Positions 1-15,590 of a stretch of 64,000 nt of DNA are shown piece by piece. Positions within the stretch are counted from its first letter, which is position 1. Each line of letters opens with the position of its first letter. The stretch covers positions 1 through 64,000 of the forward strand of contig PDUK01000023.1 in the NCBI GenBank assembly GCA_006212115.1, in the 5' to 3' direction. Origin of the DNA: Thalassolituus sp. (lineage in GTDB: Bacteria > Pseudomonadota > Gammaproteobacteria > Pseudomonadales > Oceanobacteraceae). The notes under the pieces are model-generated. The model was not told the DNA's origin. It worked only from the letters and a program-made list of their open reading frames with translations, and ran no database searches. Position numbers and translations under genes: made by a program.

Positions 1-1046
1 GCCCGGAAATCGTTGCAGAAGCCGTTAAGGTTCTGAACGTAGCGAACGAAAAATTCAATCTGGGTCTGGAGCTGGTGGACGGTCTGGTAGGTGGTTCTGC
101 CTACGACGTGCACGGTACGCCACTGCCAGAAGAAACTATGGACAAAGCCCGTGCAGCCGACGCAATTCTGCTGGGTGCGGTAGGTGGTCCTAAGTGGGAT
201 AACCTTGAAGATCGCGAACTGCGTCCTGAAAAAGGTCTGCTGGGTCTGCGTTCAGGTCTGGAGTTGTTCGGTAACCTACGTCCGGCAATCCTGTACCCGC
301 AACTGGCGGATGCGTCTTCACTGAAGCCTGAAGTGGTTTCTGGCCTGGATATTTTGATTGTGCGTGAACTGACTGGTGGCATTTACTTCGGTAAGCCTCG
401 CGGTATCCGTACTCTCGAAAACGGTGAACGTGAAGGCTACAACACTTACGTGTACAGCGAGTCTGAGATTAAGCGTATCGCTCATGTAGCGTTCCAGTCG
501 GCCATGAAGCGCAACAAGAAGCTGTGTTCAGTCGACAAAGCCAACGTTCTGGAAGTGACTGTGCTGTGGCGCGAGATTCTGGAAGAAGTGGGCAAAGAAT
601 ACCCAGAAGTTGAACTGTCTCACATGTACGTTGATAACGCGGCGATGCAGCTGGTGCGTGCGCCTAAGCAGTTCGACGTCATGGTTACCGGGAACATGTT
701 CGGTGACATCCTGTCAGATGCAGCTGCAATGCTGACCGGTTCTATTGGTATGTTGCCTTCAGCCTCTCTGGATAAAGACAACAAAGGTATGTACGAGCCA
801 TGTCATGGTTCGGCTCCAGATATCGCAGGTCAGGGCATTGCTAACCCATTGGCAACCATCCTTTCAGCTGCGATGATGTTGCGCTACTCACTGGGTGAAG
901 GTGCTGCGGCGGACGCAATCGAAAAAGCCGTCAGCAACGTACTCGATAAAGGTCTGCGTACCGGCGACATCTTCTCTGACGGTATGCAGAAAGTTTCTAC
1001 TGCCGAGATGGGCGAAGCAGTTGTGGCTGCTCTGCAGGAGGTTTAA
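1..1046 (+). CDS. leuB: 3-isopropylmalate dehydrogenase, 5' end cut by the window
   Basis: LeuB oxidatively decarboxylates 3-isopropylmalate in leucine synthesis, in the cytoplasm. The reading frame is open from base 3 and begins inside the conserved N-terminal GDGIGPE motif (PEIVAEAV is visible), so only about a dozen residues are missing. The family signature with YVDNAAM and the C-terminal [10 protein letters not shown] and HGSAPDIAG motifs, which bind metal and NAD, are intact. A GTG at position 75 is internal and is not the start. The stop is followed after 4 bases by asd, whose ribosome binding site lies in the last codons of leuB, so the two are probably cotranscribed. Confidence 0.97.
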
Positions 1047-1050
1047 TTCA

Positions 1051-2172
1051 ATGTCACAGATGAATGTTGGCCTGGTTGGCTGGCGCGGTATGGTTGGCTC
1101 TGTCCTGATGCAACGCATGCGGGAAGAGAAAGATTTCGACCTGATCAACCCGGTGTTTTTCACCACGTCTCAGAAGGGCCTTCCAGCCCCTGACTTTGCG
1201 GGTAAAGACTGCGGCACGCTGGAAGACGCGTTCGATATCGACGCGCTGAAAGCACAGGATGTCATCATTACCTGTCAGGGCGGTGATTACACTAAAGAAG
1301 TCTACGGCAAGCTGCGTGAAGCGGGCTGGAATGGTTACTGGATCGATGCAGCATCATCATTGCGCATGGATGACAGCGCTATCATCGTCCTTGATCCGGT
1401 GAACAAAGACGTTATCGAAAAAGGCATTGAGTCAGGTGTAAAAACCTACGTTGGCGGTAACTGTACCGTTAGCCTGATGCTGCTGGCACTGGGCGGTCTG
1501 TTCGAGAAAGATTTAGTTGAATGGGTAGCTCCGCAGACCTATCAGGCGGCGTCTGGCTCTGGTGCGCGTCACATGCGCGAACTGATTTCTCAGATGGGTG
1601 CTATCCGCGACGAAGTGAAAGATAAGCTTGATGATCCTGCTAGTGCGATTCTGGAAATCGACCGTCAGGTGGCTGATTTCATCCGTAGCGATGCATTGCC
1701 GACCGACCAGTTTGGTGTGCCTCTGGCGGGTAGCCTGATTCCATACATCGACTCTCAGCTGGAATCTGGTCAGAGCCGCGAAGAATGGAAAGCACAGGTT
1801 GAAGCTAACAAGATTATGGGTCGCAGCGATGATCAGGTGCCAGTCGATGGTCTCTGTGTTCGTGTCGGGGCGATGCGTTGTCACAGTCAGGCAATGACCA
1901 TCAAGCTGAAAAAAGATCTGCCAGTCAGTGAAATTGAAAGCATTCTGGCCGGTCACAATGACTGGGTGAAAGTGGTTCCGAATGATCGCGATGTGAGCAT
2001 GACCGAACTGACTCCAGCCAAAGTGACGGGCACATTAAGTATCCCGGTAGGCCGTATTCGTAAGTTGAATATGGGGCCGGAATATATTTCTGCCTTTACG
2101 GTGGGTGATCAGCTCCTTTGGGGCGCAGCTGAGCCACTTCGCCGAATGTTGCGCATTTTGTTGACTAAGTGA
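1051..2172 (+). CDS. asd: aspartate-semialdehyde dehydrogenase
   Basis: Asd reduces aspartyl phosphate to aspartate semialdehyde, feeding lysine, threonine, methionine and diaminopimelate synthesis. The product is 373 residues, the normal length. The N-terminal NADP fold shows [11 protein letters not shown], and the catalytic cysteine is Cys138 in GGNCTVS. The frame is open further upstream into leuB, but the ATG at 1051 has a strong AGGAGG site ten bases before it and gives the standard [11 protein letters not shown] start. It ends at a clear intrinsic terminator, so the leuB-asd unit stops here. Confidence 0.98.
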
Positions 2173-2174
2173 TT

Positions 2175-2203
2175 AAAAAGCGGGGCATTTGCCCCGCTTT
2201 TTT
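2175..2203 (+). terminator. intrinsic terminator after asd
   Basis: An A-run and GC-rich stem (AGCGGGGC pairing with GCCCCGCT), a four-base ATTT loop and a run of six T residues start three bases after the asd stop. The A-rich left flank would also let it act on the opposite strand, but no minus-strand gene ends here. Confidence 0.9.
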
Positions 2204-2277
2204 CATGGTGGCTGGTAAAAAAATGCTCTAAGTGTTTCATGCGTCACGCTTTTATCCCCCGTAAGCCGGGCAAAATA

Positions 2278-2306
2278 TTGCGTTAGCTGACTTTATATTT
2301 GATACT
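2278..2306 (+). promoter_or_regulatory. candidate sigma-70 promoter of fimV
   Basis: TTGCGT at 2278-2283 and GATACT at 2301-2306 are separated by 17 bases. They lie in the 218-base gap between the asd terminator and the fimV start, the only space where fimV could have its own promoter. The leader would be about 110 bases. This is a consensus match only. Confidence 0.45.
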
Positions 2307-2421
2307 ACGAAGCGCTTATGAACGGAATCTATAAGTAAGCTTGGTCAGGATCATCTAAAAAGAAAGCGGTTTCTCGATAAACCTGCGATACATCGTCGCG
2401 AACGACAACAAGGAAGCAATA

Positions 2422-5400
2422 ATGAAGCGCCTACTTGCTAAAAGCATTCTGTTGGCTGGGGGAATGTCCTTACTTATCTTCTCAAATTCTGGCACTTGGC
2501 CTGGGTGAGATGAAGTTGGATTCTGCATTGAATCAACCCCTGAATGCTAAGATAGAGCTTATTGATGCGCAGGGTCTGACAAACGCTGAAATAAAGCCGA
2601 AACTCGCAAGTGCAGCGGATTTTGAACGAGCGGGTATCGATCGCTATCAATTCCTGACGCAAATGAAATTTTCCGTGAATGGTGACCGCATTCTGATCAC
2701 CACTCGCGATCCGGTTAATGAACCTTTTCTGAACTTCCTCGTTGAGTTGAACTGGCCTGCCGGTCGAGTTTTACGTGAGTACACCGTACTGCTTGACCCA
2801 CCTGTCTTTGAAGAAGGTCGCGTTCAACCTTTGGTCGCTGTTCCCGCAGGCTCCGTACAATCGACCGCGACAGTGACGACTCAGCCAGCGCCTGCACCAA
2901 AGCCTGCGCCGACTCGCTCGAATACCTGGCAGGAGCCAGCCGCACCGGGTACTTATAAAGTACAGCCGAACGATACCTTGTGGGAAATTGCACTGGCTAC
3001 CCGTCCAGATTCATCAGTAAGTCCACAGCAGATGATGATCGCGCTTCAGGATGTAAACCCAGACGCATTCATTAACGGCAATATTAATCGCCTGAAAACG
3101 CACACTGTTCTCGATATTCCAGACGCCTCAATTATCGAAACCGTTAATAACCGTGAAGCGGTTGCTGAGGTAGTTCGCCAGAATCGGGAATTGAAAGCGG
3201 GTGTTGCACAAATTGATGCAACCGGTCGTAAGAACGATGCACCAGCCCCGCGTAAAAGCACTGGTAACGGTGAAGTACGTCTACTTGCCTCACAGGCTGA
3301 TGGCGACGCCAACCAGTCTGGAGGTTCAGTGTCGGGTGCAGCCGGTACTCGAGGTGCAGCGGATACTGATCTCGCTATTGCACTTGAAAACCTGGATAAG
3401 AGCCAACGTGAAAACCAGGAATTGGTTGATCGCCTGAGTGCACTTGAAGAACAGCTTGCGAAAATGGAGCGCCTGATTGCGCTTCAGAATGATCAATTGG
3501 CCAGTATGCAGGCCGAGTCCGCGAACAATGCTGCTAAGCCAGAAGAAGCGGCCGCCAATGCACGGCAGGATCAAAACGCAACTTCTGAAGCAGCCGTTGA
3601 AACGGGTGATGCCGTAGTAGCTAACCAAACTGCTGAAGAGGCTACAAAACAGGAACAGCTAACTACTGTTTCTGAATCGGCTGTAGAGACTGATGATACC
3701 GCACCTTCTGGAGCTGAAAATTCTGAAGTCAGTGAATCAGGAGCAGAGGTTGCAGGCGCCGAGGGTCAGGCTGCTGTAGCCGAGGGCGACTCTTCCTCTG
3801 ATGGTGGCAGCGCTGAGACAGATTACAACTACAGCGAGCAAACTGATGCAGCGTTGACTGCACCGGTTGCTTCAGAAACCGCTGAGCAGAAAGCGATGGC
3901 AGAGCGTGCCGCTGCAGAAGCGCGCAAAGCGGCATCACAGTCAAATCAGTCCATTGTCGATAAGATTCTGGCCGTTCCATACGAATATCTGGCAATCGCC
4001 GCAGGCCTGCTGCTGACGCTGATTGTTCTGGTGCTCCGTTTACGTGCACGCAAAGAAGAAGAGGCTGTTGCCGCTGCCGAGAAAGAGCTCGCTGCTGAAG
4101 ATGTAGCGGCTTCCGGTGCAGCACTGGATGATTTTGACCAGCTTGATGGTCTCAATGGGCCAGACGGCGATGATCTTCCTGATTTTGAAGAAAGTGCGCT
4201 AGCTGACAACAACGAAAGCGAGTTTGGCGACTTCGACCTTGGCAATGACGATCCAACCCAGAACATCGAGTCTGATCTGGCTGACATTGATCTTGATGCC
4301 TACGAAGACGCTGATGCTGAATACGAAACCGTAGGTCAGACCGAAGATGCACTCAGTGAGTCGGACATCTATATCGCATACGGTAAGTTTGATCAGGCGA
4401 TTGAACTGCTGAAAGGCGCCATTGCGGCTGAACCAGAGCGCACAGATTTGCGACTGAAACAGCTGGAAGTGTTGTCCTCACTTGACGACGCTCAGGCATT
4501 CGCAGAGTCAGAGTCAGACCTGATAGCTCTGGGCAATGCCGATGCCAATGCCGCAGCCGCTGAATTGCGTATGCAGCTGAGCAATCCTGTTGAACCCGAG
4601 ATTCGCGCGGATGACGCTTTGTCTCTTGATGGTGACTTGCCATCGCTGGATGACTCTGCGGAAGGTGAGTTCGATGACGGAATGGACTTTGGTGCGGCAC
4701 TCGATTTCGGTGACGATGTTAAGCCTGAAGATGACGGTATTGGCGCCAAGCTTGAAACCGTTCCGGAGCTGGAGTTGGGCGAGTCTTCTGACTTTGACGC
4801 TGAAGGCGAAGGTGTCAACATGTCCCTCGAAGATGAAGCGCCAGAGCTGGATGACGAGCTGCTTAATTTCGACATGGAAGACAGCGACCAGCTTGAGAAT
4901 GATGAATCGGATTCACTGGCCGAGCTGGACTCAGCCCCTGCGCTGGATATCGAAGCGGAAGATTCTGCTGAAGAAGGTGCGGGTAGCTTTGAGCTTGATG
5001 AAGAGCTGGTTGGTGACCTCGAAGAATTGCCAGCGGCAGACTTATCTGACGAGCCTGAGCTGGAAGCCGGTCTGGACTTCAGCACCGATGAGTTTGAACT
5101 GGACGAAGAAGGCCTGACAGCCGCGCTGGAAGAAAATGAGGCGCCGGTAACGGACGCTTCTGTGGAAGTGAAAGAGGAAGACGATCTTTCACTCGATTTC
5201 GAATTAGATGAGCCTGTTGCTGTATCTGATGAGTTGGATGACCTTCTCGACGAATCTGAGCCGGGTGTAGAGTCTCTTGACGCTTTGGTTGAGGACGGTA
5301 CTGAAGACGGTTCGAAAGTAGACGCCGTCGATAGCATCGAAAACGTCTCTGATGCGCTAGCAGCAGAAGAGTCAGATGATGACCTGCCAGAGCTGACCTT

Positions 5401-5923
5401 CGACGTCGATACGGATGATGCTGAGTCAGTCGATCTTGCTGATCTGAGCCTTGATCAAAATAGTGATCAGGACAGTGACCTGACAGAAGACCTGACTGCC
5501 GAAGCTGTACAGGACGAAGTTGCGCCGGATGATGCACCTCTGGCGTTGGAAGATCTTGAGCTTCCTAGTGACGACGCATTGGCAGAAGCTTCAGGCTCTC
5601 AGTCTGATGAGCCAGAGGCGTCAACCGATGAGGATTCTGATGCCTCTGACGAGCTGGAAGGTCTGATGTCCATGGACGCGGATGATCTTGCTGAGAACAG
5701 TGATCTTATCGGTGGTATTGATCTGGATGAACTGGCGGCAGCGGATGATGAGTTCGACTTCCTGGCTGGTACCGATGAGTGTGCTACCAAGCTGGATCTG
5801 GCTCAGGCCTATGTCGATATGGAAGATGTCGATGGCGCGAAAGAGCTGCTTCAGGAAGTGATTCAGGAAGGTAATGACGCCCAGAAACAAGAGGCAAAAG
5901 ACCTAATGGACAAACTATCCTGA
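2422..5923 (+). CDS. fimV: FimV-like polar LysM protein, with an apparent frameshift in the signal peptide
   Basis: FimV is an inner-membrane hub protein that binds peptidoglycan and organises type IV pili and cell-pole assembly. From residue 20 or so the 1162-codon frame has everything expected: the GLGE...SALNQPLNAKIEL N-terminal domain, a LysM domain near residue 171 (YKVQPNDTLWEIA), a coiled coil around 310-350, one membrane helix near 516-540, a long Asp/Glu-rich cytoplasmic part and a short C-terminal TPR-like domain (LDLAQAYVDMEDVDGAKELL). The only ATG with a good AAGGAAG site, at 2422, starts a convincing signal peptide (MKRLLAKSILLAGGMSLL) but in another frame, which stops at 2506. 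Dropping one base near 2476 joins the two. Without that shift, only a TTG at 2435 could start the main frame, without a proper signal sequence. Confidence 0.88.
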
Positions 5924-15494: not shown

Positions 15495-15535
15495 ATTCCT
15501 GCTTTATATCGTTCCGCCTTGAATCTTCTGACTTA

Positions 15536-15590
15536 TTCCGTCTGCAGCCGGCGGGTCACTCTTGTTCCGTCTGCAACCGGTGGGTCACTC
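15536..15590. repeat. two imperfect 26-base direct repeats
   Basis: Copies at 15536-15561 and 15565-15590 have a 29-base period and differ at two positions (G/A and C/T). A third partial GGGTCATTC follows and contains the stop codon of the minus-strand gene. No open frame or hairpin explains them. Confidence 0.8.

Follow-up and report, generated by a model that had tools for sequence, protein, structure and literature searches.

The fimV gene of a draft Thalassolituus sp. genome is assembled with its signal peptide and its body in different reading frames. The split is very probably an assembly artefact at a strain-branch point, and not silencing of the gene or programmed frameshifting. It most likely exists in the assembled sequence but not in the organism.

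The window, which is the whole 64,000-base stretch analysed, is contig C7 (64,058 bases). The draft genome to which C7 belongs totals 3.28 Mb in 224 contigs and has 84.5% completeness and 4.86% contamination. Its left edge carries leuB, asd, fimV and truA, in that order. The nearest relatives compared were Thalassolituus maritimus DSM 24913 (A), the Oceanospirillaceae MAG RS342 from the Red Sea (B), and an Oleibacter marinus MAG (O). Coordinates of the features at the fimV locus are reported in Table 1.

Table 1. Features at the left edge of the window, in window positions.
Feature	Position	Strand	Remarks
Tract resembling the T. maritimus clade: leuB, asd, fimV promoter and signal peptide	1–2472	+	Signal strongest up to ~1500
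Stretch of 94 bases identical to three sister genomes	2379–2472	+	Exact-match comparison; base 2378 differs
Shine-Dalgarno-like AAGGAAG of fimV	2410–2416	+	Read directly; same bases in T. maritimus, O. marinus MAG and RS342
fimV start and signal-peptide frame	2422–2508	+	Read directly; ends at out-of-frame TGA 2506–2508
fimV body frame	2426–5923	+	Single open frame; FimV_N, FimV core (LysM-like) and FimV C-terminal domains
Tandem 4-bp duplication CTTA, CTTA	2469–2476	+	Inferred assembly seam between 2472 and 2473

Split reading frame of fimV

An earlier note, made from the sequence alone, placed the signal peptide and the body of fimV in different frames, and this was confirmed. The frame opened by ATG 2422 encodes MKRLLAKSILLAGGMSLLIFSNSGTWPG and runs into its stop at TGA 2506–2508. 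The body ORF lies one frame over and counts 1162 aa from TTG 2435. It scores 115.3 bits against the FimV N-terminal Ig-like domain (PF25800, cut-off 27), 95.2 bits against the FimV core model (TIGR03505, cut-off 43.45) and 66 bits against the FimV C-terminal model (TIGR03504, cut-off 30.65). With three FimV models above their cut-offs, the body ORF is a true FimV, and its domain architecture agrees with the FimV architecture described in the abstract of PMC12918733. Likeness to the FimV/HubP polar landmark protein extends to the same three domains and to the position between asd and truA; the difference is that this assembly puts signal peptide and body in separate frames. As assembled, fimV has no in-frame N-terminal signal peptide, and this is attributed to an assembly seam.

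Signal peptide and body share one frame in all 80 relatives compared (the best 80 of 114 loci found, many of the 80 being Pseudomonas). Signal peptides in these relatives were judged by a simple criterion, an in-frame start followed by a basic, hydrophobic N-terminus (hydropathy). Titles and abstracts reached by a limited literature search contained no mention of a fimV frameshift in Thalassolituus.

Programmed +1 frameshifting would deliberately join the two frames, and such use of a frameshift by the cell had been offered as one reading of the locus. Both frames are open across the overlap at 2426–2505, and GGG TGA at 2503–2508 could in principle slip to GGT. Against this, the split frame occurs in 0 of the 80 best relatives, so that the arrangement is not conserved and the single frame of the relatives counts against a frameshift used by the cell. 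The sole run of five G in the overlap (2458–2462) lies ~40 bases from the TGA, and a slip near the TGA would leave a signal-peptide end unlike those of the relatives. Programmed frameshifting is barely credible here.

A four-base duplication at a 94-base edge

The distance from the ATG to a conserved G-E motif is 27 codons (81 bases) in the ten nearest relatives, versus 85 bases in the window. In alignments, the four surplus bases form a perfect tandem CTTA (2469–2472 and 2473–2476). At this position CTTA is present in two copies in the window, in one copy in T. maritimus, RS342 and the O. marinus MAG, and in none in NORP38. A one-base indel was rejected on this four-base difference. The single extra base that the earlier note proposed near 2476, its repair by skipping one base, and its proposed refutation by a corrected read lacking one base are all of the wrong size. 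The indel looked like one base because one and four bases give the same frame shift. The note had also argued against a slip site at the junction, wrongly, as the junction is itself the tandem CTTA duplication. A phase-variable repeat tract was rejected on copy number, with two copies only here and one or none in the relatives. The duplicated sequence CTTACTTA occurs 2 times in the window versus 0.73 expected and is not rare by chance; it is notable through its absence in the aligned relatives and its coincidence with the seam signature described below.

On the right, the 94-base match takes in the whole first CTTA copy and goes no further. Exact matches were scored against the compared stretches of A, B and O, on both strands. 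The sequence scored was 189.9 kb, made up of C63, C162, C7, C129 and 60 kb from the start of C69. The exact-match ceiling in these 189.9 kb was 94 bases. Five matches reach exactly 94; four are at contig ends (C63 start, C162 far end, C129 end and C69 start), and one is internal, the match that closes at the fimV junction. Five of the 14 contig ends tested close with exactly 94 sister-identical bases followed by a different base, the fifth being the C142 start, and the other nine are without an exact 94-base match. A control comparison of A with B gave 64 matches of at least 95 bases and one of exactly 94. Matches at least this long touch only 0.28% of background positions. The edge at 2472 is like that of contig ends of the same assembly, and the fimV junction thus bears the mark of a former contig end.

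One exception to the ceiling was found in C168, with five exact matches of 101–173 bases within the first 1.6 kb. These long matches (C168 1–1600) are to T. maritimus and the O. marinus MAG, and reflect either very conserved genes or DNA from another strain.

Contig C142 (1–3336) is 94% identical to RS342 along all 3,336 bases. C69 carries the genome's own version of part of C142, and this version is 76% identical to C142. These identities indicate that the bin also contains second-strain DNA. Because C142 resembles RS342 while the C69 version differs, the strain mixture needed by the seam explanation is present.

De Bruijn assembly of metagenomes with co-occurring strains produces artefacts at contig ends and branch nodes. 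At fimV, the assembled reads would also have held a close Thalassolituus strain. Where the strains shared at least 94 bases, the assembly graph would have branched and pieces would have ended. One piece would have ended at 2472 after 94 sister-identical bases, and the next would have begun at 2473. Joining these pieces end to end would have written their four-base overlap, CTTA, twice and put signal peptide and body out of frame. We infer that the assembly used a de Bruijn graph with 94-base nodes, that the pieces were joined in this way, and that real cells carry an ordinary single-frame fimV. The locus resembles known strain-mixture artefacts in that pieces end at a fixed-length stretch exactly shared with a sister strain, short overlaps are left uncollapsed, and a second-strain contig is in the bin; it differs in that the exact software step is deduced here.

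Of the readings first offered, a sequence error holds up strongly in the form of an assembly join, given the 94-base edge and its recurrence, rather than of a base-call error. Both a recent silencing mutation and a frameshift used by the cell are disfavoured by the single frame in the 80 best relatives of 114 together with the 94-base signature of a contig end. A false call of fimV as a pseudogene or as a programmed frameshift is thereby cleared. For draft and metagenome-derived genomes, we suggest a simple check of whether an exact match to a sister strain, of one fixed length, stops at the indel and turns up again at contig ends. A frame break showing such an edge should not be taken as biology until the reads are checked.

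Duplications elsewhere in the genome

Tandem duplications of 4–20 bases that are present here and single in both A and B were scanned for in 129.9 kb of the Thalassolituus sp. genome. Three were found, in fimV (4 bp), at the 3′ end of sucA (7 bp), and in an aspartate aminotransferase-like gene, towards its 5′ end (8 bp), and none of these lengths is a multiple of three. The same scan of control genomes found none in 135 kb of A (~118 kb facing the contigs) and none in 189 kb of B (~117 kb facing). In a second sample of 79.9 kb, there was one 6-bp tandem duplication and zero frame-shifting ones; controls for this sample, scored against the Thalassolituus sp. genome only, were free of such duplications over 80 kb of A and 120 kb of O (~60 and ~66 kb facing contigs, respectively). 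The 6-bp duplication lies at C168 13254–13267 and has no counterpart in either T. maritimus or the O. marinus MAG.

The sucA duplication is at C162 12242–12255, read on the minus strand (approximately window positions −12232 to −12219). It makes the frame run past the stop, which gives a sucA-sucB fused ORF of 1384 codons. The right-hand piece starts with copy two of the repeat, and base 95, counted from the seam, is the first at which A, B and O all disagree with it, which is the edge seen at fimV. This duplication is probably the same kind of seam as that in fimV. The aminotransferase duplication (C63 8146–8161) shifts the frame near the gene start. On both sides of it mismatches fall at position 94 but also at others, leaving no clean 94-base edge, and no exact match there is longer than 16 bases.

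A real, simple 4-bp slippage in the lineage, recently silencing FimV, was also weighed. Spontaneous mutation commonly produces tandem duplications of this size, and the body is one open frame with FimV domain matches. After such a slippage, restart at ATG 2510, beside the stop (TGAGATG), could yield FimV without a signal peptide. However, it would then be accidental that the duplication falls both on the 94-base edge and at the jump in divergence described below, and two more frame-changing duplications are found in the core metabolic genes sucA and the aminotransferase. Slippage is therefore very unlikely, and the assembly seam remains the preferred explanation.

A codon-frame scan by nucleotide alignment covered 101 alignments and 34,297 codons, and found 11 genes with long or terminal out-of-frame runs. 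The out-of-frame run at the 5′ end of sucA is an over-long ORF start. Ten of the listed genes were viewed by eye: one has a real duplication (the aminotransferase), eight look like over-long starts or intergenic indels, and the tenth, near C7 32466, was aligned away from its proper place. The remaining runs, of 17 to 32 bases, were taken for gap-placement noise. fimV was not listed by the frame scans, which shows that such scans can miss short N-terminal shifts.

Divergence jump and the leuCDB-asd tract

The window has zero differences from A, B and O at 2379–2468, versus a difference from the unanimous clade at about one in six bases from 2479. The clade-like tract to the left of the junction extends ~2.56 kb into the upstream contig C162 (leuC and leuD, C162 1–2580), for ~5 kb in total. 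The overlap between C162 and C7 is exactly 22 bases. In the first two kb, the window is roughly as near to A and B as they are to one another: identity to A is 92.2 and 88.9%, versus 90.8 and 89.0% between A and B. Each of the remaining 62 one-kb bins, starting with the one across the junction, shows a more distant window, with a gap of 2.8 to 16 points.

Bins of 500 bases were compared across four contigs (251 of 263 with data). Eight of the nine most clade-like bins fall in the leuCDB-asd tract (C162 14501–17000 and C7 1–1500), and one is in C129 (501). The bins covering 1501–2472 have weaker clade likeness and are absent from the 30 most clade-like. Because the bins at 1501–2500 are less extreme, this measure leaves the position of the tract's right boundary imprecise. 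Neither end of C63, neither the start nor the end of C129, nor the far end of C7 is clade-like, and on these bins similarity switching as a general contig-end effect was rejected.

At four-fold sites, the match to A is 67% for leuC, 82% for leuD, 71% for leuB and 65% for asd. Among 96 other ORFs compared at such sites, only two are above 59% (70 and 64), at the sdhA end of C162. Scaled to A-B identity, the four genes of the tract come 3rd, 4th, 5th and 10th of 100. In the tree for the right side of the junction, the window falls outside the clade, and a position sister to T. maritimus is rejected (AU p 2.9e-6). The left-side tree fits equally well with the window outside the clade and with the window as sister to T. 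maritimus (AU p 0.53 and 0.47, respectively). The similarity switch is thus seen in distances and is not proven by the left-hand topology.

Identity between A and O is 84–94% within the tract, 97–100% at 2001–3500, and mostly 94–100% left of the tract; it falls again to 85–94% from 3751 on. These changes in A and O similarity around the tract are a weak hint of recurrent exchange. A second copy of leuC, leuD or asd was not found in the bin, with most of leuB outside the query.

These data bear on a further explanation, in which the cell received ~5 kb of leuCDB-asd from a donor of the T. maritimus clade and an imprecise right crossover in fimV added four bases, silencing the gene. The clade-like tract runs over two contigs with synteny kept (~−2560 to 2472) and stops close to the duplication, the shifts in similarity between T. 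maritimus and the O. marinus MAG would fit recurrent exchange, and the bin yielded no second copy of leuC, leuD or asd. If this were so, the cell would have gained amino-acid genes at the price of its polar organiser. Against such a scar, crossovers between homologous sequences are normally exact. A 94-base contig-end signature at precisely 2472 would also be unexpected, and similar duplications occur elsewhere than in the tract (sucA and the aminotransferase). A real recombination scar in fimV is therefore unlikely. The tract itself may be a natural allele replacement by recombination or a chimeric scaffold made by strain mixing, and either origin leaves the verdict on the frameshift, an assembly seam, unchanged.

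Elsewhere in the window, two 29-bp direct repeats, 90% alike, are found at 15532–15590.
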